In this document: positions 27,192 through 56,351 of the stretch, in pieces | Layout: each line of letters opens with the position of its first letter | How positions within the stretch are numbered: position 1 is the first letter of the stretch | Assembly (NCBI GenBank): GCA_015061905.1 | Contig: SUVQ01000005.1 | Location: 33,192 to 97,191, forward strand | DNA: 64,000 bases | Source of the DNA: Verrucomicrobiota bacterium | GTDB lineage: Bacteria; Verrucomicrobiota; Verrucomicrobiia; Opitutales; UBA953 | Reading direction: 5' to 3' | The notes under the pieces: model-generated | Database searches by the model: none | Told to the model about the DNA's origin: nothing | The model's input: only the letters and a program-made list of their open reading frames with translations | Translations under genes and position numbers: made by a program

Positions 27192-28343
27192 TTAAACTTT
27201 CTTTCCCGCTTCGTAGCGCGCAATCCATTCGCGCGACCACGGCGTGAAGTCTCCCGCTTCGATGTGTTCCCGCGCTTGGCGCATCAGGTCTTGGAAGAAA
27301 TGAATATTGTGGATGCTCAAAAGCACGGACGAGAGCATTTCTCCGGAAACGTATAGATGGCGCAGATACGCGCGCGAAAAACGGCGGCAGGTGTAGCTGT
27401 CCAAACCGTCAACAAGCGGTGTTTCGTCGAGTTTGAATTTTTCGTTTTTGATGTTAATCGTGCCGTCCGGCGTGAACGCGGTGCCGTGGCGGGCGAGGCG
27501 CGTCGGCATCACGCAGTCAAACATATCCGCGCCGAGCGCAATCATTTTCAGAAGCTGAGGCGGCGTGCCCACCCCCATGACGTAGCGCGGCTTAAAATGC
27601 GGGAGAAACGGCGTGCTTGCGGCAACCTGCTGGAGCATTTCCGGCTCGGGTTCGCCGACGGAAACGCCGCCGATGGCGTAGCCGGGAAAATCCATTTGCG
27701 AAAGGGCTTCGGCGCATTCGCGGCGCAAGTCGTCGTAAATCCCGCCTTGGACGATGCCGAAAACGTGATGCCCGGCGGCGATGAAGCCATCGTCAATCGC
27801 GTGGCAGAGAAATTCGTTTGCCCAGCGCAGTGTCGTGCGATTGGCGTCGGCAACGTCGCGTTTTTTCGCCGGGAACGGCGGGCAAATATCCAAAACCATC
27901 GCGATATCGCTCCCGAGCGCGCTTTGGATGTCGAGGCAGCTACGCGGCGTGAGCGTGATGCGTGCGCCGTCCAAGTGCGATGCGAACGTGATGCCCGCTT
28001 CGGTGATTTTTCTCAGCTTGGAAAGGGAAAAAACCTGGAAGCCGCCGGAATCCGTCAGAATCGGTCCGTCCCAATCCATGAATTTGTGCAAGCCGCCGAG
28101 CGCGCGCACGGTTTGCGGTCCCGGGCGCAAATTCAGGTGATAGGTGTTGCCGAGAATGATTTGCGCGCCCGTTTCTTTGACTTGCGCGGGCGTAAGAGAT
28201 TTGACCGTGCCTTGCGTGCCGACGGGCATGAAAACCGGCGTCTGCACGTTCCCGTGGCGAGTGCGCAGTTCGCAACGGCGCGCCGCGCTTGCGGGATCGG
28301 TTTTCAAAACGGTGAAATGCGTGTTGGACTCGGCAGACATCAT
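27192..28343 (-). CDS. tgt: Queuine tRNA-ribosyltransferase
   Basis: GNVQTPVFMPVGTQGTVKSLTPAQVKETGAQIILGNTYHL...DWDGPILTDSGGFQVFSL...MGVGTPPQLLKMIALGADMFDCVMPTR. Confidence 0.96.
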   Translation of the reverse strand: MMSAESNTHFTVLKTDPASAARRCELRTRHGNVQTPVFMPVGTQGTVKSLTPAQVKETGAQIILGNTYHLNLRPGPQTVRALGGLHKFMDWDGPILTDSGGFQVFSLSKLRKITEAGITFASHLDGARITLTPRSCLDIQSALGSDIAMVLDICPPFPAKKRDVADANRTTLRWANEFLCHAIDDGFIAAGHHVFGIVQGGIYDDLRRECAEALSQMDFPGYAIGGVSVGEPEPEMLQQVAASTPFLPHFKPRYVMGVGTPPQLLKMIALGADMFDCVMPTRLARHGTAFTPDGTINIKNEKFKLDETPLVDGLDSYTCRRFSRAYLRHLYVSGEMLSSVLLSIHNIHFFQDLMRQAREHIEAGDFTPWSREWIARYEAGKKV

Positions 28344-28473: not shown

Positions 28474-29208
28474 TTAAAACGCTTCGCCGTTGACGAAAAG
28501 GCGTTTGATGACGGGCGTGCCGTCGCTACGGAGGAAGAGTTCGGCGGAAACGTCCGCCATGCTCCCGCTGTATTTTTTGTCAAATTCCTTGGCTTTTTCT
28601 TCTGCGAGATAAAACCGATGGTCCGGGAAAAAAATCCGGGGATTTTCAAACGAGAAAAGCAGTGCACTTTCCGCCAAGGCGGGAACGTTTTCGGGAAGCG
28701 TTTCGTTGTCTTGCAGGAGCGGATTGCTGATGCGAAAGTTCCAATATTTTGTTCGCTTGAGCGACAGGGCGATTTTTCCCGCTTGCGGGTTGGCGTTGAA
28801 ATCAATTTTCGGGTCGGAAGTCGTTACGCGCTCCACTTCCCAAAGTCCGGTTTCGGGAACGGGTGCGAGCACGAGCCAAAGCTCCGAAACCAGATTGTCG
28901 CAACTGTAAGCGTAGGCGAAAGTGTAGCGCCTTTCCCCTTTGCGCACATATTCCATTTTTGTCGAAAATTTTTCGCGAATTTGCTTTTGCGCGGCTTCGT
29001 CGAATTTTGAAAACGGAATGTTGTCCAAAATTTTAAAATCGAGCGGCAAGTAATGTCCGCGCAAAAGATCGCGCGGGTCATAAGACGTGCATTGGAGGCG
29101 GAAAGTCGGATTGTTGCGCCATTCGCGTTCCCGCAGAACCGACATGAACGCGATGCCCGCGACTTGCGCGGCGAGAAGAAGGACGACGAGAAAAATTCTG
29201 AATTTCAT
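28474..29208 (-). CDS. GDYXXLXY-domain membrane-anchored protein
   Basis: RDLLRGHYLPLDF signature; N-terminal TM; next to a DUF2157 gene. Confidence 0.75.
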   Translation of the reverse strand: MKFRIFLVVLLLAAQVAGIAFMSVLREREWRNNPTFRLQCTSYDPRDLLRGHYLPLDFKILDNIPFSKFDEAAQKQIREKFSTKMEYVRKGERRYTFAYAYSCDNLVSELWLVLAPVPETGLWEVERVTTSDPKIDFNANPQAGKIALSLKRTKYWNFRISNPLLQDNETLPENVPALAESALLFSFENPRIFFPDHRFYLAEEKAKEFDKKYSGSMADVSAELFLRSDGTPVIKRLFVNGEAF

Positions 29209-29236: not shown

Positions 29237-30418
29237 TTAAAGACCGGATTCCGCTTGCTGCTGCTCGCAGTCTTTGATTTTCGCCGTGATTTTGCGGCGA
29301 CCGCGTTCGAGAAAATACCCGAAAACGAGCAAAAACGTTCCCGCCAGAATCAGCGCGAACCCGCTACTCGTGAGCGAGCCGACAACTTCGACGGCAAGCG
29401 CGAGTGCGGCGAGCAAAATCATCAGCGCGCCGAGATTGACGTAGAATTTTCGCGAAACTTGCGCGCCGAGCACCATCGCGGCGCTCCCGCAAACAAAAAG
29501 CGTGCCCATCATCACGGCGTGGAGAAAATCGTCTCCGGGATTATTTTTGCACGAATCCGCATAACTTAAAGCGAGCGGAACGAGCGGGAACGCGCCGAGT
29601 AAAATCGCGGCGGCAACGCCGGGCTTATTCAGCTTTTTCCAAAAAGAAACGAGGAGTGCGGCGAGCAAAATTGCGCTCGCGGGAACGAGCGCGAAAAGCG
29701 AGTTCGGGTAAAAATCGATTTCGTCGTAACAAAAAATCTGCGCCATGAAAACGAGTATCGGAAACGCCGTCCACGCCGCAAGCGGACCGTAGCCGCGAAA
29801 GCGTTCCCGCGTTTCTTCCTTCAGGTTGCCGACAAAAATTCCGAGCGCGGAAACGCCCGTGAAAAACGCGAGAAAGTAAAAGTAGGAAACAGCGTCTCTT
29901 CCGCCGTCGATTTCATCGAGTTTGAGTCCGAGCCAAATGCCTGCCGCGACGAGCGAGAGCACGAAAACGCCGCGCAGGCGCACGAGCCAAGGAATCAGAA
30001 AAATCCCGAGAAACCACGCGCCGATCGCTTTCGACGGTTCCGAGGAAATTTGGTAAATCTGCCCGTAAAGCGCGATGTTTGCGAGCCACGTTCCCGCGCC
30101 GACGAGGCAAAGCCCTTCGCCGAGAATCGGGCGCGGATTTTCTTTCCGGCAAATAAATCGTAGCCCGAAAATCCAAAACGCGAGCATGATTGCGGCGGCG
30201 GAAATTTGTTTCGCCAAAGGCGGAATCGTTTCCCAGTTCGCGGAAATCAGCAGAATAATTCCCGCCAGCACGAGAAGCCCCCCGACGCTCGAAAGCGCAA
30301 TCAGCAGATAGTTGCGGGACGCGGAAGGCGTGAGCTTTAATTGTGCGACAATCGCGTCTTTCTGTTCCCGTGAAATTAAACCCAGTTCGAGGAGCTTTTC
30401 GGCATCGGAGTATTTCAT
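29237..30418 (-). CDS. DUF2157-domain polytopic membrane protein
   Basis: LLELGLISREQKDAIVAQL then multiple TM helices ALSSVGGLLVLAGIILLISANWETIPPLAK. Confidence 0.8.
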   Translation of the reverse strand: MKYSDAEKLLELGLISREQKDAIVAQLKLTPSASRNYLLIALSSVGGLLVLAGIILLISANWETIPPLAKQISAAAIMLAFWIFGLRFICRKENPRPILGEGLCLVGAGTWLANIALYGQIYQISSEPSKAIGAWFLGIFLIPWLVRLRGVFVLSLVAAGIWLGLKLDEIDGGRDAVSYFYFLAFFTGVSALGIFVGNLKEETRERFRGYGPLAAWTAFPILVFMAQIFCYDEIDFYPNSLFALVPASAILLAALLVSFWKKLNKPGVAAAILLGAFPLVPLALSYADSCKNNPGDDFLHAVMMGTLFVCGSAAMVLGAQVSRKFYVNLGALMILLAALALAVEVVGSLTSSGFALILAGTFLLVFGYFLERGRRKITAKIKDCEQQQAESGL

Positions 30419-42310: not shown

Positions 42311-42340
42311 AAAGAGCGTTCCCGCGCGGGAACGCTCTTT
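42311..42340 (+). terminator. 30-bp perfect palindrome made of two head-to-head copies of the iterated motif (fabV terminator)
   Basis: AAAGAGCGTTCCCGCGCGGGAACGCTCTTT. Confidence 0.88.
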
Positions 42341-46971: not shown

Positions 46972-48621
46972 ATGGCAAATATTCCTCCTTTCAAATATCA
47001 ACACCCGTTCCCGCTCGGTGAAGACAAAACCGAGTATTATCTGCTCACGAAAGATTATGTTTCCGTCGGCGAATTTGAAGGCGTTCCCGTGCTCAAAGTT
47101 GCCAAGGAAGGCTTGACCGCGATGGCGAACGCCGCTTTCCGCGATGTTTCTTTCATGCTCCGCCGCGCGCACAACGAGCAGGTCGCGAAAATTCTCCGCG
47201 ACCCGGAAGCGAGTGAAAACGACAAATACGTCGCGCTCACGTTCCTGCGCAACGCGGAAGTCGCCTGCAAGGGGAAGCTCCCGCTCTGCCAGGACACGGG
47301 AACGGCGATTATTCACGGCGAAAAAGGTCAGCAGGTTTGGACGGGCTACTGCGACGAAGAAGCGCTTTCGCTCGGCGTTTTCAAAACTTACACGGAGGAA
47401 AATCTGCGCTACTCGCAAAACGCGCCGCTGAATATGTATGACGAAGTCAACACGCGTTGCAATCTTCCCGCGCAAATCGATCTCGAAGCCACCGAAGGCA
47501 TGGAATACAAATTCCTGTGCGTGACCAAGGGCGGCGGGAGCGCGAACAAAACCTATCTTTATCAGGAAACGAAAGCACTTCTGAACCCGAAAACGCTTGT
47601 TCCGTTCCTCGTCGAAAAAATGAAAACGCTCGGCACCGCCGCTTGCCCGCCGTATCACGTGGCATTCTGCATCGGCGGCACTTCGGCGGAAAAAAATCTG
47701 CTCACGGTCAAACTCGCTTCGACGCACTACTACGACGAACTCCCGACCAGCGGGAACGAGCACGGACGCGCCTTCCGCGATGTCGAACTCGAAAAACAGG
47801 TGCTCGAAGAAGCGCATCGTATCGGGCTCGGCGCGCAGTTCGGCGGGAAATACCTCGTGCACGACGTGCGCATCGTCCGCCTTCCGCGCCACGGCGCGAG
47901 TTGCCCGGTCGGCATGGGCGTTTCCTGCTCTGCGGACCGCAACATTAAGTGCAAAATCAATAAAGACGGTATTTGGATTGAAAAACTCGACGACAATCCC
48001 GGCGAACTCATTCCGGAAGAACTCCGCGAAGCCGGCGAAGGCAACGCCGTTAAAATTGACCTCAATCGCCCGATGCCGGAAATTCTCAAAGAACTTTCGA
48101 AATATCCGGTCGCGACACGCCTTTCGCTCAACGGCACGATTATCGTCGGACGCGATATCGCGCACGCAAAGCTGAAAGAACGCCTTGACCGCGGCGAACC
48201 GCTCCCGCAATACATCAAAGACCACCCGATTTATTACGCGGGACCGGCAAAAACTCCGGCGGGAATGGCGTGCGGCTCGATGGGACCGACGACGGCGGGA
48301 CGCATGGACTCTTACGTCGATTTGTTCCAAGCCAACGGCGGCTCGCTCATTATGCTTGCCAAGGGCAATCGCAGCCAGCAGGTAACGGATGCGTGTAAAA
48401 AACACGGCGGCTTCTACCTCGGCTCTATCGGCGGCCCGGCGGCAATTCTCGCGCAGAACAATATCAAGTCGATTGAATGCGTCGAATATCCGGAACTCGG
48501 CATGGAAGCGATTTGGAAAATCGAAGTCGAAAACTTCCCGGCGTTCATTTTGGTCGACGACAAGGGCAACGATTTCTTCAAACAAATCCGGCCCGTCTGC
48601 CCGTTAGGACAAAAAGCTTAA
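46972..48621 (+). CDS. Class I fumarate hydratase
   Basis: [17 protein letters not shown]...[17 protein letters not shown]...[48 protein letters not shown]. Confidence 0.94.
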
Positions 48622-48643
48622 AGTTTAAGGCTTAGCGCTTAAA

Positions 48644-48687
48644 GGGCGTTCCCGTGAATTGATTTCGTGGGAACGCTTTTTTTTTGT
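48644..48687 (+). terminator. Fumarase terminator built from an inverted motif pair
   Basis: GGCGTTCCCgtgaattgatttcgtGGGAACGCTTTTTTTTT. Confidence 0.82.
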
Positions 48688-48708
48688 GCTAATAAAATCT
48701 GCATTTTC

Positions 48709-48873
48709 CTTATTGCAAAATTTTTTGTGCAAACTCTGCTTATCACAAAATATTTTGTGATAAGGAACCGGTGCTTTTACTTATCGTAAAGTATTTTGTT
48801 GTTTGAAAAGGTTGCCATAAATCATATTTGTAGTAAGAGAATCTCTATTTTTCTTATTGAAAATTTCGTGAAC
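48709..48873. repeat. Iterated palindromic element, one perfect 26-bp palindrome plus three degenerate copies
   Basis: CTTATCACAAAATATTTTGTGATAAG (48739-48764, self-complementary); related copies at 48709-48733, 48780-48804 and 48853-48873. Confidence 0.8.
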
Positions 48874-49562
48874 TTCAGAACTACATCGGTTCCGAGCTCG
48901 GCGGCATCGAAAATGCGAGATTTATTCCGCCGGATCCGCTGTGCGTTCCCGCACTCATGGATAATTGGACGGCGTATCTTGCTTCAACGGAAAAAGATCC
49001 GATCGTTCAGGCGGCAATCATCCACGCGCAGTTTGAAATAATCCATCCGTTTTGCGACGGGAACGGGCGTTTGGGGCGCATGCTTCTTCCGCTCTTTTTC
49101 TTTAGCAAGGGCGTTCTTCCCGCTCCCATGTTTTACCTCAGCCGTTACTTGGAGCGGTTTGAAACGGAGTATAAAAATGCGCTTCTCGGCATTACGGCAA
49201 ACGGGGATTGGACGTCGTGGGTGCGCTTTTTTGCTCGGGCGGTAACAGCGCAGGCGGAGGAAAATCTCGCCATTTCGGAAAAAATACAAACCTACTATCG
49301 CGATACGAAAAAACGCATTTTGGAAAATACGCGCTCGCAACACGCGATTTCGCTTTGGGATGCCATCGTATCAACGCCGGTGTTCCGCATTTCGTCGCTC
49401 AAATTGCTGAAAGCACCTTCGCGGATTGCTCTGATGCAGTTGGTTACTCAATTTGAAAAAATGGGAATTATCCATCGCATCGAACCCGCAGCCGGAAGAA
49501 AAGGCGCGCTCTATGTTTGCGCTCCGCTCGTAAACATCCCTGAACAAAAAGAAATTTTTTGA
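48861..49562 (+). pseudogene. 5'-truncated Fic-domain protein gene
   Basis: Open homologous frame KFRELQNYIGSELGGIENARFIPPDPLCVPALMDNW... begins directly after an in-frame TGA at 48858-48860; Fic motif HPFCDGNGRLGR intact; N-terminal part absent; longest ATG ORF 48957-49562. Confidence 0.75.
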
Positions 49563-49575
49563 TGAGGATTGGCTC

Positions 49576-49627
49576 TTTAAAGCGTTCCCGTGATAAACGG
49601 TTTTTGCCGCGCGGGAACGCTTTTTTC
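49576..49627 (+). terminator. Fic-gene terminator built from an inverted motif pair
   Basis: AAAGCGTTCCCGTGataaacggtttttgcCGCGCGGGAACGCTTTTTT. Confidence 0.8.
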
Positions 49628-49668: not shown

Positions 49669-51606
49669 ATGAACGGATTCTCCCCAGCCCCCAGAGACCA
49701 ACGACTTAGCGCACTCAAATCCCTGATTCCGGAAGCGTTTTCCGAAGGAAAAATCGACTGGGAAAAACTCAAAGCCGCACTCGGCGAAGACGTCAATTTT
49801 TCCAACGAACGTTACGTGCTCAACTGGGCGGGGAAAAGTGAGGCATTTCGCATTTTGCAGGAACCCTCGTCCGCAACGCTCGTTCCCGTGCGCGAAGAAT
49901 CTGTCGATTTCGACAACACGCAGAATATTTTTATCGAAGGCGAAAACCTTGCCGTTTTGAAAGCACTCCAAAAGAGCTATTTCAACAAGGTCAAAATGAT
50001 TTACATCGACCCGCCGTATAACACCGGAAACGATTCTTTCATTTATCCCGACAAATTTTCCGAAACCAAGGAGGAATATCTCAAACGCGTCGGCGACAAA
50101 GACGAATCCGGATACATGTTGCGGGAAGGGCGTTTCGCGAAAAATTCCAAAGAAAACGGACAATACCACAGCAACTGGCTCAATATGATGATGCCGCGCC
50201 TCTACCTCGCAAAAAATCTCCTGCGGGAAGACGGCGTAATCTTCGTTTCTATCGACGACAACGAAGTGCACAATCTCCGCTTGCTTATGAACGAAATCTT
50301 CGGCGAGGAGAATTTTGTAGCGCAGATTCCGTGGCAATCAAGGGCTTCGATTCAGAACGATACAGATTTTAGTGTTAACCATGAGTATGTGATAGCATAT
50401 GCAAAGCATCGCCGACAGGAGAATCGGCGTCTTAAAGAGAGCAATGCAGAGGAATGGTATAAGACAAATTCTTTCGTTTGCAAGCCGCTACCCCTGGATA
50501 AAGATAAATTTGACAATCCTGACAATGACTCCCGTGGGCTATGGAAAGCGGATCCTTTTGATGCTCCCAATGTGCGCTCTAATCTGACTTATCCAATTGT
50601 AAACCCCACAACAGGTGAAACTTATTTCCCGGCGCGTGGTCGCCACTGGAGGACAGATTTGAAGCAATATAAAAAGGCTTTGGCAGACAATAGAATCTGC
50701 TTTGGGAAAGATGGGAAAGGGAAGCCTCAATTAAAAGTTTTTTACGAAGAAAAAAAGGCTTACGGATCTATTGACAATTCATGGTTTGATGCAAACAGAA
50801 TTGGAACTTCAACTTTGGGCACAAAAGAATTACAGCGACTTTTTGATGGGGTTGCGAATTTTGATACTCCTAAGCCGACGACCCTGTTGAAAAAGTTGTT
50901 AGATTTATCAAATCTTCAAAAAGATTCCATCATCCTCGACTTTTTCGCCGGTTCGGGAACGACGGCTCACGCGGTGATGCAGTTGAATCGGGAAGACGGC
51001 GGGAACAGAAAATACATTTGTGTGCAGTTGCCGGAAAAGTGCGACGAAAAAACCGAAGCGTTTAAGGCGGGCTATAAAACGATTGCCGACATCGCGAAAG
51101 AGCGGATTCGCCGCGCGGGAACGAAAATTCGCGGCGAAGTCGAAGCGGAACAGGCGAAGCAAAGCGGGGAACTGGGACTTGCCGGAACGCCGGAAGTGAA
51201 GATGCCGGATCTCGGTTTTAAGGTTTTTAGACTCGAAGACAGCAATTTCAAGCAGTGGCGCAAGACGACGGCGGCAACTCTCGCGGAGGTCGAACAGCAG
51301 ATGCTGGATTTGGTCGATCCCGTGAAGCCGGACGCGGCGGTTGAAAACATCATTTATGAGCTTCTTTTGAAAAGCGGCAAGGATCTGAATAGTAAAATTG
51401 TTCGCGGGAACGGTTTTTATAACGTGAACGACGGCGAGCTGGTGTTGCTCTTGGAATCCGCTTCGCAGGAAATTGTGGATTCGGTTATCGCACTTGCTCC
51501 CGCGAAAGTTATTGCCCTCGACCGCCTCTTCCACGGCAACGACCAACTCAAAACCAACACCTCCCTCCAATTCCGGGATAGCTCTGTTGAATTTTTAACG
51601 ATATAA
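49669..51606 (+). CDS. mod: Type III restriction-modification methyltransferase (Mod, beta-class N6-A/N4-C MTase)
   Basis: MIYIDPPYNTGNDSFIYPDKF (motif IV) precedes ILDFFAGSGTTAHAVMQLN (motif I); res gene downstream. Confidence 0.93.
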   Translation: MNGFSPAPRDQRLSALKSLIPEAFSEGKIDWEKLKAALGEDVNFSNERYVLNWAGKSEAFRILQEPSSATLVPVREESVDFDNTQNIFIEGENLAVLKALQKSYFNKVKMIYIDPPYNTGNDSFIYPDKFSETKEEYLKRVGDKDESGYMLREGRFAKNSKENGQYHSNWLNMMMPRLYLAKNLLREDGVIFVSIDDNEVHNLRLLMNEIFGEENFVAQIPWQSRASIQNDTDFSVNHEYVIAYAKHRRQENRRLKESNAEEWYKTNSFVCKPLPLDKDKFDNPDNDSRGLWKADPFDAPNVRSNLTYPIVNPTTGETYFPARGRHWRTDLKQYKKALADNRICFGKDGKGKPQLKVFYEEKKAYGSIDNSWFDANRIGTSTLGTKELQRLFDGVANFDTPKPTTLLKKLLDLSNLQKDSIILDFFAGSGTTAHAVMQLNREDGGNRKYICVQLPEKCDEKTEAFKAGYKTIADIAKERIRRAGTKIRGEVEAEQAKQSGELGLAGTPEVKMPDLGFKVFRLEDSNFKQWRKTTAATLAEVEQQMLDLVDPVKPDAAVENIIYELLLKSGKDLNSKIVRGNGFYNVNDGELVLLLESASQEIVDSVIALAPAKVIALDRLFHGNDQLKTNTSLQFRDSSVEFLTI

Positions 51607-52817
51607 TGCGAGCTATGGAAAAGACGCCTACAGTCATTGATTTGTTCGCGGGTTGTGGAGGACTTTCTCTTGGTTTATATCAAGCCGGATGGCAGGGAAT
51701 TTTTGCGATAGAGAAAAATGAATTTGCATTTGACACGTTGAAATTCAATTTGATTGAGAAAAAGAAGCATTTTGCATGGCCGGAATGGCTGCCGAAAACA
51801 AATCATGATATTGACGAGGTTTTGAACAATCACAGAGCAGATTTAAAGCGTTTACGGGGGACGATTGATTTAGTTGCGGGCGGTCCGCCTTGCCAAGGAT
51901 TCTCAATGGCGGGAAAGCGTATTGAGAAAGACGAGCGAAACAAGCTGGTTTTTTCATATATTAAATTTATCGAACTTGTTCGCCCCAAGATGCTCTTTTT
52001 TGAAAATGTTAAGGGGTTCACTTATGCATTTAATAAAAAACAGGGGGCAATCCCGTATTCTCAGCTTGTGGTCGAAAAACTTTCGGGGTTGGGCTACGAT
52101 ATCCACGCAGAGGTCTTGGATTTTTCTGAATTTGGTGTTCCGCAGCGTCGGAAGCGGTTTATACTTGTCGGGGTGAGGACAGAACAAGGATGTGCGGCGG
52201 ATTTTTTCCGCCTTGTGAAGTCGAAAGCGGCTCGTTTTTTAGAGAAGAATGGGCTTTCTTGTAATCCGACGTTGGCTGATGCGATATCAGATTTACTAGA
52301 AAGAAACGGCATTAAACCTACTCCGGATAGGAAAGGCTTCTCTTCCGGTGTATATGGAGAGGCAACTTCTGCTCTGCAAATGTTTTTGCGAAAAAGCTCA
52401 AATCCAGAATCAATTCCGAATAGCCACAGTTTTGCAAGGCATACAAAAGAACGATTGGAATGCTACAAAAAATTACTGGAGGAGTATCCCAAGCGGGGGC
52501 GCCGAATAGACGGAGATGAGCGTATGCGGTGGAATATTCGGCAACGAGGTATAACCGTTATGGACGGAAGTCAACTTGCGCCGACAATCACTGCACATCC
52601 GGATGATTATTTACATTATTGTGAGCCTCGGATAATGACTGTTCGAGAGTGCGCTCGAATTCAAACATTTCCGGATTGGTATGAAATTAAACGAAAGTAT
52701 ACAACCGGAGGGAAAATGCGGAGAATTGAAGTCCCTCGATACACTCAGGTGGGAAATGCAATTCCCCCTCTTTTTGCACAACAAGCAGGATTAACTTTGA
52801 AGGAGATTTTAAGGTAA
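51606..52817 (+). CDS. DNA (cytosine-5-)-methyltransferase
   Basis: TVIDLFAGCGGLSLGLYQAGW; GGPPCQGFSMAGKR; FFENVKGF; VPQRRKRFILVGVR; TVRECARIQTFPDWY; QVGNAIPPLFAQ. TAATG coupling to mod (alternative ATG at 51615). Confidence 0.96.
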   Translation: MRAMEKTPTVIDLFAGCGGLSLGLYQAGWQGIFAIEKNEFAFDTLKFNLIEKKKHFAWPEWLPKTNHDIDEVLNNHRADLKRLRGTIDLVAGGPPCQGFSMAGKRIEKDERNKLVFSYIKFIELVRPKMLFFENVKGFTYAFNKKQGAIPYSQLVVEKLSGLGYDIHAEVLDFSEFGVPQRRKRFILVGVRTEQGCAADFFRLVKSKAARFLEKNGLSCNPTLADAISDLLERNGIKPTPDRKGFSSGVYGEATSALQMFLRKSSNPESIPNSHSFARHTKERLECYKKLLEEYPKRGRRIDGDERMRWNIRQRGITVMDGSQLAPTITAHPDDYLHYCEPRIMTVRECARIQTFPDWYEIKRKYTTGGKMRRIEVPRYTQVGNAIPPLFAQQAGLTLKEILR

Positions 52818-55396
52818 TGGATAAACTGAGCTTTAGGGTGAGTTCCGCGTTAAAAGACCTCGTTGGTAAAGACCTAGTTACGAGCGAGAACGTTGCTATA
52901 TTTGAGTTAGTAAAAAATTCATACGATGCCTATGCGACAAAGGTTGAGATAACGTTTTCTGACGATAAAATTGTCATTGCAGATAACGGGAAAGGAATGA
53001 CGTTTGACGATTTGAAAAAAAAATGGCTTTTCCTGGGTTATTCTGCAAAAAAAGATGGCACAGAAGATAGACCGGATCAGCTTAAGCAGAAGTCGTATCG
53101 AGATCGGATTAAGCGGCGATATGCTGGGGCTAAAGGGATAGGGCGCTTTTCTTGTGATAGATTGGGCAAAAAATTATTGCTCATAACAAAAAGTGAGTCT
53201 GCGGAGTCTACGGAAAAAATAGCTGTAAACTGGGCTGATTTTGAAAACGATCAGCAGACAGAGTTTACGGAGGTCGAAATTGATCATACATCAGTTAGGC
53301 GGGATTTTGTTGTTTTTCCGGGTGGGAAAAAAACGGGAACGATTCTTGAAATTTCAAGCCTAAATGCAGAAAGATCCCGATGGGATAGGGCACACATTTT
53401 AGACTTGAAGCGCTCGTTGGAGAAACTAATCAATCCCCTTGCAGAATCGGAAGATTTTTCAATAGAAATTATCTGTGAGAGAGAGAAAGCAGAAGATTTA
53501 AACGAATCGCACGATAGAGATATCGTCAATGGTATTTTAAAAAACAGCATCGCTGAAATTTTTAAAATTAAGACTACACAAATTGATGTAAGGCTAAATT
53601 CTGAATACATAGAAACAACGCTATCTGATAGAGGTGTCGATATATACAAAATAAGAGAGAAAAATATCAATTTTAAGCAGTTGGTTGATGTAAGAATTAA
53701 TCTCTACTTTTTAAACCGTTCTGCAAAGTATAGCTTTACCCGATTAATGGGGATAGAGCCTGTCAATTATGGATCTATTTTTTTGTTCCGGAATGGCTTT
53801 AGGATCATGCCGTTTGGAAATACTGGTGATGATAGTTGGGGCTTAGATTACAGAGCGCAGCAAGGGCGGAGTCGTTTTTTAGGGACACGAGATTTATTTG
53901 GTCGGGTGGATGTATTAACCGATAATGTTGATGAATTAAAAGAGGTGTCCAGTCGAGATGGAGGGTTGATTGAAACGAGGACATCGAGGCAATTATTTGA
54001 GTTGTTTAAGATAGCACACAGGCGTTTGGAGCGTTATGTCTCAGGGGTCTTGTGGGGCGGAGGATTTCTACAACGAGAGTATTTTGCAACAGAAGCAGAG
54101 GCGTTAAAAAAAAGAAAAGAGCTTTTGGATATAGACAAAGATGAGGATGATCCTAATTACATCTTCTCTTCCAGTATGGGAAGTAAGATTGATTTTGTTC
54201 AGTTAATTAAAACATTGATCAAAGATAAGAACGTTGAGGTGCTATATTACAACACAGAGCTCGCGAATATTTTTTCGCTTTCTACTGGCGTTGATACTAT
54301 AAAGCCTCAATTTATTCGGGATTTAGAAAAAATTGCAGAAAATACGAACAATTCAAATCTGCTCGCATCCGTTGAGGAGGCGAAGCATCGGATATCGGAA
54401 TTGCAACGAGAAAAAGAGGTCGCAGAAGCCCGAGCTTTAGATGAAGAGCAAAGGAGAATTGCGGCAGAGAAATCTGCAAAGGATGCAGATTTGAAAAAAC
54501 GGGAAGCCGAAAAAAAAGCTGAGCTTGAGCGAGAGAAGAAGCGAGAAGCTGTCTTGCGCGCCAAAGAGGCTGAACTAAAACGGAGAGAGGCTGAGGTGCT
54601 TCGAAAAGAGGCCGAGCAGAAAAAGAGGGAAGAAGAGGAGCGCAGAATCGTCGCGGAATCAGAAAAAAAACAAGCAGAGATTCGACTAGAAAAGAAAATA
54701 GAGCAATTAAAAATCGTATCGTCGTTGTCTTCGCAGGATCTAGAATCTGTCACAAATTTACACCATCAAACATATGTTGTCGCAGACAACATTAATGCGA
54801 TGATAACTTTGTTTTCAAGGCAACTACGTATAAATGAACCGATCTCGTACGGTAGGATTATTGATTTTTTAAATGATGTTTCGTTCGAAAATAGCAAAAT
54901 TATAAGTTTTTCAAGGTTTGGGATAAAAAAGATATTCGATGATTTTACAACGAAAGATGAATACGACATCGTTGATTTTCTGAAGAACTATATTGATAAA
55001 ATTGCAAAGCATTTTTTAGGGAGTCGCATAGATGTCAAATTTGAGAACCGAATAAATACTTCGTTTAAAACATTTTTTGCGCCGATTGATGTCTCTATCA
55101 TAGTTGATAATATGGTAAGTAATGCGAAAAAAGCGAAGGCGAGTCTTTTGGAGATTATAGTGGATGGAGTGGGGGAAAAGCTCTTTCTATCGTTCATTTC
55201 AAATAGGACATTTAGTGACGGTATTTCGGATCTTAACGATATTTTTGAAAGAGGGTTTTCAACAACAAAGAGTACGGGAGTTGGGCTTTATCATGTAAAA
55301 AATATTGTTGATGGTAATTCTTGGGAGATCATACCGAAGAGACATGAATCAAGTGCAGAGTTTTTAATTACGATAAAACATGAGAATAAATTATAA
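52817..55396 (+). CDS. Dual GHKL protein: N-terminal Hsp90/MORC-like ATPase, long charged coiled coil, C-terminal histidine-kinase-like ATPase
   Basis: N-terminal ELVKNSYDA, IADNGKGM, GAKGIGRFSCDRLG; coiled coil around EKEVAEARALDEEQRRIAAEK...EIRLEKK; NLHHQTYVVADN (H-box-like); DVSIIVDNMVSNAKKAKA (N box); FERGFSTTKSTGVGLYHVKNIVD (G box). Confidence 0.85.
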   Translation: MDKLSFRVSSALKDLVGKDLVTSENVAIFELVKNSYDAYATKVEITFSDDKIVIADNGKGMTFDDLKKKWLFLGYSAKKDGTEDRPDQLKQKSYRDRIKRRYAGAKGIGRFSCDRLGKKLLLITKSESAESTEKIAVNWADFENDQQTEFTEVEIDHTSVRRDFVVFPGGKKTGTILEISSLNAERSRWDRAHILDLKRSLEKLINPLAESEDFSIEIICEREKAEDLNESHDRDIVNGILKNSIAEIFKIKTTQIDVRLNSEYIETTLSDRGVDIYKIREKNINFKQLVDVRINLYFLNRSAKYSFTRLMGIEPVNYGSIFLFRNGFRIMPFGNTGDDSWGLDYRAQQGRSRFLGTRDLFGRVDVLTDNVDELKEVSSRDGGLIETRTSRQLFELFKIAHRRLERYVSGVLWGGGFLQREYFATEAEALKKRKELLDIDKDEDDPNYIFSSSMGSKIDFVQLIKTLIKDKNVEVLYYNTELANIFSLSTGVDTIKPQFIRDLEKIAENTNNSNLLASVEEAKHRISELQREKEVAEARALDEEQRRIAAEKSAKDADLKKREAEKKAELEREKKREAVLRAKEAELKRREAEVLRKEAEQKKREEEERRIVAESEKKQAEIRLEKKIEQLKIVSSLSSQDLESVTNLHHQTYVVADNINAMITLFSRQLRINEPISYGRIIDFLNDVSFENSKIISFSRFGIKKIFDDFTTKDEYDIVDFLKNYIDKIAKHFLGSRIDVKFENRINTSFKTFFAPIDVSIIVDNMVSNAKKAKASLLEIIVDGVGEKLFLSFISNRTFSDGISDLNDIFERGFSTTKSTGVGLYHVKNIVDGNSWEIIPKRHESSAEFLITIKHENKL

Positions 55397-56351
55397 GATA
55401 TTGTGGTTCGAAGACGAAAAGTCTTCGTATAAAACCAAGAAAAGATTTGTCAAAGAAATCGTAGAAGAATTCGGATTTAATTTTGTTGAGCCTCAGAACG
55501 AGGTGAGCGGGGACAATATCCACACGTTGAATTATTCACAATTCGATTTGATTATCGCAGATATGAATCTAGCGAAAGGTGTTACTGCAATGGAATTGAT
55601 GGATATTATTCGTAGAGAAAAAAAGGTATTTACAGAGGTTTTGTTTTATTCGTCAGAAGGAGAGCTTGCGGTAAGAAAGGTGCTTGCAAACTACAAGATT
55701 GATGGTGCGTATTGTTCTGGACGCGATAATGAGGATTTCGAGTATAAAGCTCGGGAGGTTATCCTTACATTGATTAAGAAAACACAAGATCTGACAAATA
55801 TGCGCGGCTTAGTAATGGCAGAGGTTAGCGAGTTGGACTTATTGATGGAGCGAATTATTCGGAAATTTCTGTCTACTGTTGGTGATCGGGAAAAAGAGGC
55901 CTTCAAGAAAAATATCGTCGGGGATGTTGAAAAATCCTTAAAGAATCTGCTACAGGCGGGAACCGTTCGTTTTTCCGGGGTTTCAGGAGAAGGAAAATGT
56001 GAGTGTGGGAAAACTTGTGTTCACGTTTGGAACAATGAAAGTGTGGATAGAATAATTTCATCCTTGGGCTTCGAGTCTTCCAGAAAGGCGAGGGCAATAC
56101 ATTTAATTATTGCGAAGGGATTTCTCAAATATAACCCCCAAAGAGCTAACTTCTTCGAAGACTACAAAAGAGAGATTATAGAGGTTCGAAACAAACTTGC
56201 ACATTGTAAAAGTGAGGTTGTTGATGGAAACGAGGTTCTCATTACTCAAAAGGGAGCCCAGGAGAGGTTCGATGATGCTTTATTTAAAGAAATTCGGACA
56301 AACATAAAAAAATACAGAGATCTTTTTCAAAAATATGAAACTGACCTTTGA
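55380..56351 (+). CDS. Receiver-domain protein with C-terminal HEPN-like helical domain
   Basis: ILWFEDEKSSYKTK...YSQFDLIIADMNLAKG...VLFYSSEGE receiver residues; C-terminal KREIIEVRNKLAHCK matching the HEPN RN-xxx-H pattern. 17-nt overlaps with both neighbouring genes. Confidence 0.75.
   Translation: MRINYKILWFEDEKSSYKTKKRFVKEIVEEFGFNFVEPQNEVSGDNIHTLNYSQFDLIIADMNLAKGVTAMELMDIIRREKKVFTEVLFYSSEGELAVRKVLANYKIDGAYCSGRDNEDFEYKAREVILTLIKKTQDLTNMRGLVMAEVSELDLLMERIIRKFLSTVGDREKEAFKKNIVGDVEKSLKNLLQAGTVRFSGVSGEGKCECGKTCVHVWNNESVDRIISSLGFESSRKARAIHLIIAKGFLKYNPQRANFFEDYKREIIEVRNKLAHCKSEVVDGNEVLITQKGAQERFDDALFKEIRTNIKKYRDLFQKYETDL

Follow-up and report, generated by a model that had tools for sequence, protein, structure and literature searches.

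Helically phased arrays of predicted operators, most likely autoregulatory, precede many SoFic-type genes and include five sites before a truncated copy in an Opitutales genome

A perfect palindrome stands in front of a broken Fic gene in the window (the whole 64-kb stretch of DNA analysed here), and the question is what such an element does there. A first-pass annotation of the sequence had offered operators, integration or transposition ends, or eroded tandem repeats that replaced the N-terminus of the Fic protein. As that annotation had stated, the 26-bp word CTTATCACAAAATATTTTGTGATAAG, at positions 48739-48764, is perfectly self-complementary. It is the sole copy within the window even with up to 3 mismatches allowed (0 expected), and by a rough order-0 estimate about 1e-3 perfect 26-bp palindromes are expected per 64 kb. 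The genome search that had been proposed led to a single place in the 2.08-Mb genome, since a 21-base word of the palindrome matches there only. The palindrome is the best among five tandem sites, whose left half-sites start at 48709, 48739, 48780, 48811 and 48853, in steps of 30, 41, 31 and 42 bp. Site 1 (48709-48734, plus strand; CTTATTGCAAAATTTTTTGTGCAAAC) is an imperfect palindrome, with half-sites at 48709 and 48724 that have 2 and 3 mismatches out of 11 to the half-site CTTATCACAAA. Site 2 is the perfect palindrome, made of two 11-bp half-sites 15 bp apart. Site 3 (48780-48805, plus strand; CTTATCGTAAAGTATTTTGTTGTTTG), 41 bp from site 2, is again imperfect, with 2 and 4 mismatches and its right arm at 48795, and site 4 (48811-48837; GTTGCCATAAATCATATTTGTAGTAAG), 31 bp from site 3, is degenerate in the window, its right arm reading TTTGTAGTAAG with 2 mismatches. 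Site 5 (48853-48863, plus strand), 42 bp from site 4, is the half-site CTTATTGAAAA with 3 mismatches. The right arm is offset by 15 bp at sites 1-3 and by 16 bp at site 4. The relatives of the palindrome that had been listed earlier, at 48709, 48780 and 48853, are present with 2, 2 and 3 mismatches out of 11, but that list was short of the site at 48811. In the spacer from 48691 to 48875, 8 matches to CTTATCACAAA were found at 3 or fewer mismatches, whereas 1000 shuffles gave 1.2 on average and never more than 6. A promoter scan found no convincing sigma-70 promoter within the Opitutales array.

Two genomes of the same genus, G004 and G001 (GTDB records L020 and L021; Opitutales MAGs from goat rectum and water-buffalo colon), keep the gene order of the window together with an intact 377-aa Fic_N-Fic protein, and both carry the array 5' of the intact gene. 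The palindrome is identical in G004 and has one central base different in G001. The left half-site of site 1 is perfect in G001 (CTTATCACAAA) and thereby cleaner than in the window; site 4 is also cleaner there (ATTATCACAAA..TTTGTTATAAG, where the corresponding place reads ATTATCACAAATTGTGTTTGTTATAAG), and site 5 is kept in both congeners. With up to 3 mismatches allowed in the arms, the palindrome was found in 3 of 57 relatives, which are exactly the three that carry the Fic gene. A single occurrence without conservation in relatives had been named as the outcome that would speak against the first-pass observation; instead, the array was kept in both congeners that retain the Fic gene. The same comparison removes the reading as eroded repeats: because the intact relatives show the array before an intact gene with its start codon, the boxes precede the N-terminus and did not replace it.

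The intact orthologue in G004 (P0001) has Fic_N and Fic domains and matches the PADLOC SoFic profile PDLC03963 over its whole length (residues 8-370, E=1.8e-100). Its score for the NCBIfam SoFic equivalog NF046030 is 136 bits, below the curated cut-off of 550, and hence we call it SoFic-type and not a strict equivalog. The Fic motif HPFxDGNGRxGR is present as HPFCDGNGRLGR, and the class II N-terminal inhibitory motif (S/T)xxxE(G/N) as S67-N-R-I-E71-G72, where E71 and G72 are invariant and S67 is nearly invariant in alignment A1. The AlphaFold2 model has a mean pLDDT of 93.1 and, in a Foldseek search, matched Shewanella SO_4266 (3eqx) over the whole length with a TM score of 0.81. The last 70 residues are a predicted winged helix, with a helix at 306-315, a recognition helix at 332-344 and wing strands at 349-352 and 361-363. 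No relatives of the Fic protein were found in viral contigs. The intact congener protein shares domains and fold with SoFic/SO_4266 (PDB 3eqx; E. coli Sofic, PMC12249575), and it is predicted to be a SoFic-type anti-phage AMPylating toxin of the single-protein kind.

In the window, this gene is truncated. Positions 48600-48864 align to G004 27976-28238 and positions 48859-49000 align to G004 28707-28848, and therefore the window lost 474 bp of the G004 sequence between two GAAAAT copies, the microhomology at the deletion junction (48859-48864). As judged from one window assembly, the loss took 44 bp from the leader and 430 bp from the 5' end of the gene. With them went the start codon and some 143 codons, the reading frame is not intact, and a TGA lies directly 5' of the surviving frame, which resumes at residue 144. 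The remnant (48861-49562, plus strand) corresponds to residues 144-377 of the intact orthologue, has no start codon, and keeps the Fic motif HPFCDGNGRLGR and the winged helix. The junction cuts the right side of site 5 and touches no other box. SoFic is truncated in the window, and therefore the predicted operator array has probably been left without its regulator.

The upstream neighbour of the array is a fumarase gene, which was seen in 7 of 8 congeners. The palindrome is absent from the congeners that keep the fumarase gene without SoFic; the array travels with SoFic and not with the adjoining fumarase gene. The strong fumarase terminator (48641-48681, plus strand) forms the upstream border of the SoFic cassette, and in two congeners without SoFic the similarity ends at or within this terminator. 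The terminator sequence, GCGTTCCCGTGA..TCGTGGGAACGC-T8 within window positions 48612-48690, belongs to a sequence-similar family with further members at 42311-42340 and 49578-49625; the family has at least 15 copies per genome in most genus members, was not found in the other genera searched, and is possibly a lineage-specific repeat element. In G004, a second copy of TAATAAAATCNGCATTTTCCTTAT lies at 29577-29608 (L013 4078-4109), about 170 bp past the stop codon of SoFic. The cassette in that genome is thus bounded by a direct repeat, a possible trace of its mobilisation. On the 3' side of the remnant, window positions 49669-56351 hold an R-M/defence island with a type III-like DNA methyltransferase, a C5-cytosine methyltransferase, an 859-aa HATPase protein with weak likeness to BbrUII/HgiDII restriction enzymes, and a response-regulator-like protein, and this island differs from the DNA 3' of SoFic in G001 and G004.

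The survey of SoFic upstream DNA covered 80 GTDB relatives, nearly all 40-50% identical, which gave 74 non-redundant loci from many phyla. In the last 150 bp of the 80 loci, repeated 8-mers had a mean of 3.98, compared to 0.63 in dinucleotide shuffles and 1.28 in 246 control regions, taken from upstream of other genes within these loci. At least 3 copies of one word were present in 21% of the SoFic upstream regions and in 1.6% of the controls. The most enriched repeated words, CACAAA, ACACAA, TACACA and GACACA with their complements, are the core of the window half-site. A letter-blind test, which asks only for repeated or inverted 11-mers (p<0.05), was used because the family PWM, skewed towards Bacteroidota, fails to find the Opitutales boxes. 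This test was significant in 32 of the 74 non-redundant loci, where 3.7 were expected; a significant array was absent in the other 42, with SoFic inside an operon in some and for no obvious reason in others. Matches to the family motif, only supportive since they come from the biased PWM, were found in 45 of 59 loci with SoFic as the first gene compared to 5 of 13 with SoFic inside an operon. In L030, L034, L041 and L042, where the SoFic start codon overlaps the stop codon of the upstream gene by 4 bp, a convincing box array of their own was absent; in three of these, the upstream gene has a similar end sequence that looks hsdS-like (type I R-M).

The box sequences vary between lineages and the geometry recurs, with GACACAAA-type boxes in L077 and GTCACAAA-type boxes in L057. 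An expansion confined to Bacteroidota added 2 new loci from 395 genomes, and among 12 further whole-genome loci, significant arrays were found in L102, L104, L107 and L111. Six of eight SoFic-type genes on plasmids were also significant (Thermus, Novosphingobium, Mesorhizobium, Roseibium, Aureibacter and Bosea), and the Mesorhizobium and Roseibium proteins reach the strict SoFic equivalog cut-off. The plasmid of Bosea sp. RAC05 (L120) has two palindromes with differing letters, ATCCCTTCATA.. and ATCCTTTAATA.., 41 bp apart; the arms match perfectly within each, so that the letters vary while symmetry and spacing are kept, which makes this locus a natural test case of operator specificity. In the deltaproteobacterial locus L061 (G038:C14:25171), the predicted SoFic operator is preceded at a distance of 344 bp by another spaced pair of boxes.

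The spacing of the boxes follows the DNA helix. Exact 7-mer repeats in the same orientation peaked at 30 bp (25 pairs) and 40-41 bp (20 pairs), compared to about 1-2 pairs at other distances, and the recurring same-orientation spacings were 30 and 40-42 bp. A spacing of 29-31 bp was present in 27 of 74 loci and in 14 of 228 controls, and one of 39-42 bp in 20 of 74 loci and in 12 of 228 controls. In the box-positive loci, which were picked by the repeat test and not by spacing, the same-orientation period was about 10.4 bp, with a resultant of 0.66 compared to a null maximum of 0.29, and ten additional held-out positive loci had a coherence of 0.78 compared to a null maximum of 0.53. Because neither the pairs of one locus nor related loci count as wholly independent data, these null comparisons serve as a guide and not as a probability. 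Opposite-orientation spacings in the box-positive loci were near half a turn (15, 25-26, 55-57 and 85-88 bp), and thus all sites face one side of the DNA. Taken together, these sequence comparisons suggest that a helically phased multi-site operator, most likely autoregulatory, recurs in the SoFic family.

Autorepression by a Fic protein has a precedent. CccR of Yersinia pseudotuberculosis, which has a Fic domain and a C-terminal HTH, represses its own promoter as a dimer on an inverted repeat, as determined by footprint, gel shift and lacZ assays, and its site is one pair of 10-bp boxes, AGATAATCAT-N26-ATGATAATCT, 36 bp start to start (PMC9755527). As a CccR-type operator model requires, the intact SoFic-type orthologue has a predicted C-terminal winged helix, and the inverted repeats lie in the promoter region of the gene itself and are conserved with the gene. 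In contrast to CccR, a SoFic array holds as many as five palindromes in unrelated letters, with an offset of 15 bp from half-site to half-site and of 30 or 41 bp from site to site; neither the CccR box sequence nor its 26-bp spacer occurs in the window array. CccR was described as a secreted effector, whereas SoFic was described as a phage-defence protein; the autorepression proven for this distant relative is a precedent for the one proposed here. In CbFic2 of Coxiella burnetii, a Fic protein with a wHTH, DNA binding by the wHTH drives dimerisation and alters activity; unlike the SoFic arrays, random DNA was used there, and no specific site or autoregulation was reported (PMC10628234). In autoregulated multi-site toxin-antitoxin promoters, such as that of AbiE (PMC7319586), several inverted repeats are bound by the system's own protein, as proposed here for SoFic; there, the antitoxin carries the DNA-binding domain, whereas in SoFic this domain is part of the toxin, and the loci have no antitoxin gene in common. 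DNA binding by SoFic was stated as not demonstrated as of 2023 (PMC10628234), the regulation of Sofic was listed as unsettled in a 2025 study (PMC12249575), and no description of SoFic operators was found in the open-access literature, the literature that the search covered.

Among the readings first offered, operators are well supported as a prediction, with arrays conserved upstream of SoFic genes. We consider it probable that the five sites form an operator array in the SoFic promoter region to which SoFic binds and thereby represses its own transcription. We infer that the binder is SoFic itself, that the sign is repression, and that assembly on one face is cooperative. A SoFic dimer would bind one palindrome through the C-terminal winged helices, several dimers would sit on one DNA face three or four helical turns apart, and these dimers would cover the promoter and repress SoFic transcription. 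In six Bacteroidota loci, the boxes near -67 and -42 fall on TTTG...TAnnTTTG, the Bacteroidota promoter consensus, so their occupancy should block RNA polymerase. This overlap, the array, its conservation and the family-wide geometry were read directly from the computations. The recurrence of the array in many phyla suggests that the SoFic family switches off its own gene.

The boxes might instead be operators for a separate transcription factor, either a local antitoxin or a global CRP/FNR-like regulator. The TCACA/TGTGA words recall CRP-type sites, and a small antitoxin gene, AS1, adjoins E. coli Sofic (PMC12249575). In addition, the recognition helix covaried with the box type at a partial Mantel r of 0.17 (p 0.012, controlled for catalytic-domain similarity), a value that several catalytic-core windows match, reaching 0.2. 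However, the site is unique in the genome, on which ground a CRP/FNR-like global site was rejected, and no neighbouring gene family was common to more than 7 of 36 box-positive loci. The spaced pair DACACAA-N22..24-DACACAA was rare in 15 other whole genomes; in several it was found only or mainly at the SoFic promoter, which was the sole match in 3. From lineage to lineage the letters change and the geometry does not, a pattern that a separate specificity of each SoFic would produce, and we regard a separate factor as unlikely.

It is very unlikely that the boxes are recombination, transposon or excision ends of the SoFic cassette, or a leader RNA hairpin acting as an attenuator, even though SoFic sits in variable islands, the cassette starts right past the fumarase terminator and is followed by the second TAATAAAATCNGCATTTTCCTTAT in G004, and the palindrome could fold as RNA. 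The boxes are confined to the 5' side of SoFic genes in 2-5 phased copies, their half-site letters change between lineages with the spacing constant, and the helical phasing strongly disfavours both ends and hairpin; comparison with the intact relatives led us to reject transposon ends as well as eroded repeats. For a hairpin, direct repeats spaced by whole turns of the helix would have no meaning, and in Bacteroidota the boxes fall on the promoter pattern itself, ahead of any leader. That an AT-rich spacer (28% G+C in the array region) holds a chance palindrome with look-alike words picked by eye is hardly credible, being refuted by the shuffles, the control promoters, the conservation and the held-out loci.

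The predicted arrays bear on how SoFic stays silent and is then released in phage attack. A further reading, which we consider quite unlikely, is that SoFic would also be held on its own promoter as a one-sided stack of dimers on up to about 10 half-sites; this stack would repress transcription and might also hold the enzyme inhibited as a dimer. Phage takeover, whether it breaks down host DNA or modifies the winged helix, would then dissolve the stack, so that the enzyme is released and the gene derepressed at once, and the operator would be the sensor of this defence system. For the autorepression that we favour, the window provides a case of a conserved, predicted operator array whose regulator gene broke recently. 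Taken together, these results name a probable DNA target of the SoFic winged helix in dozens of species from many phyla, along with its spacing rules, an offset of 15 bp for half-sites and of 3 or 4 helical turns for sites, which opens binding, repression and cooperativity to direct testing.
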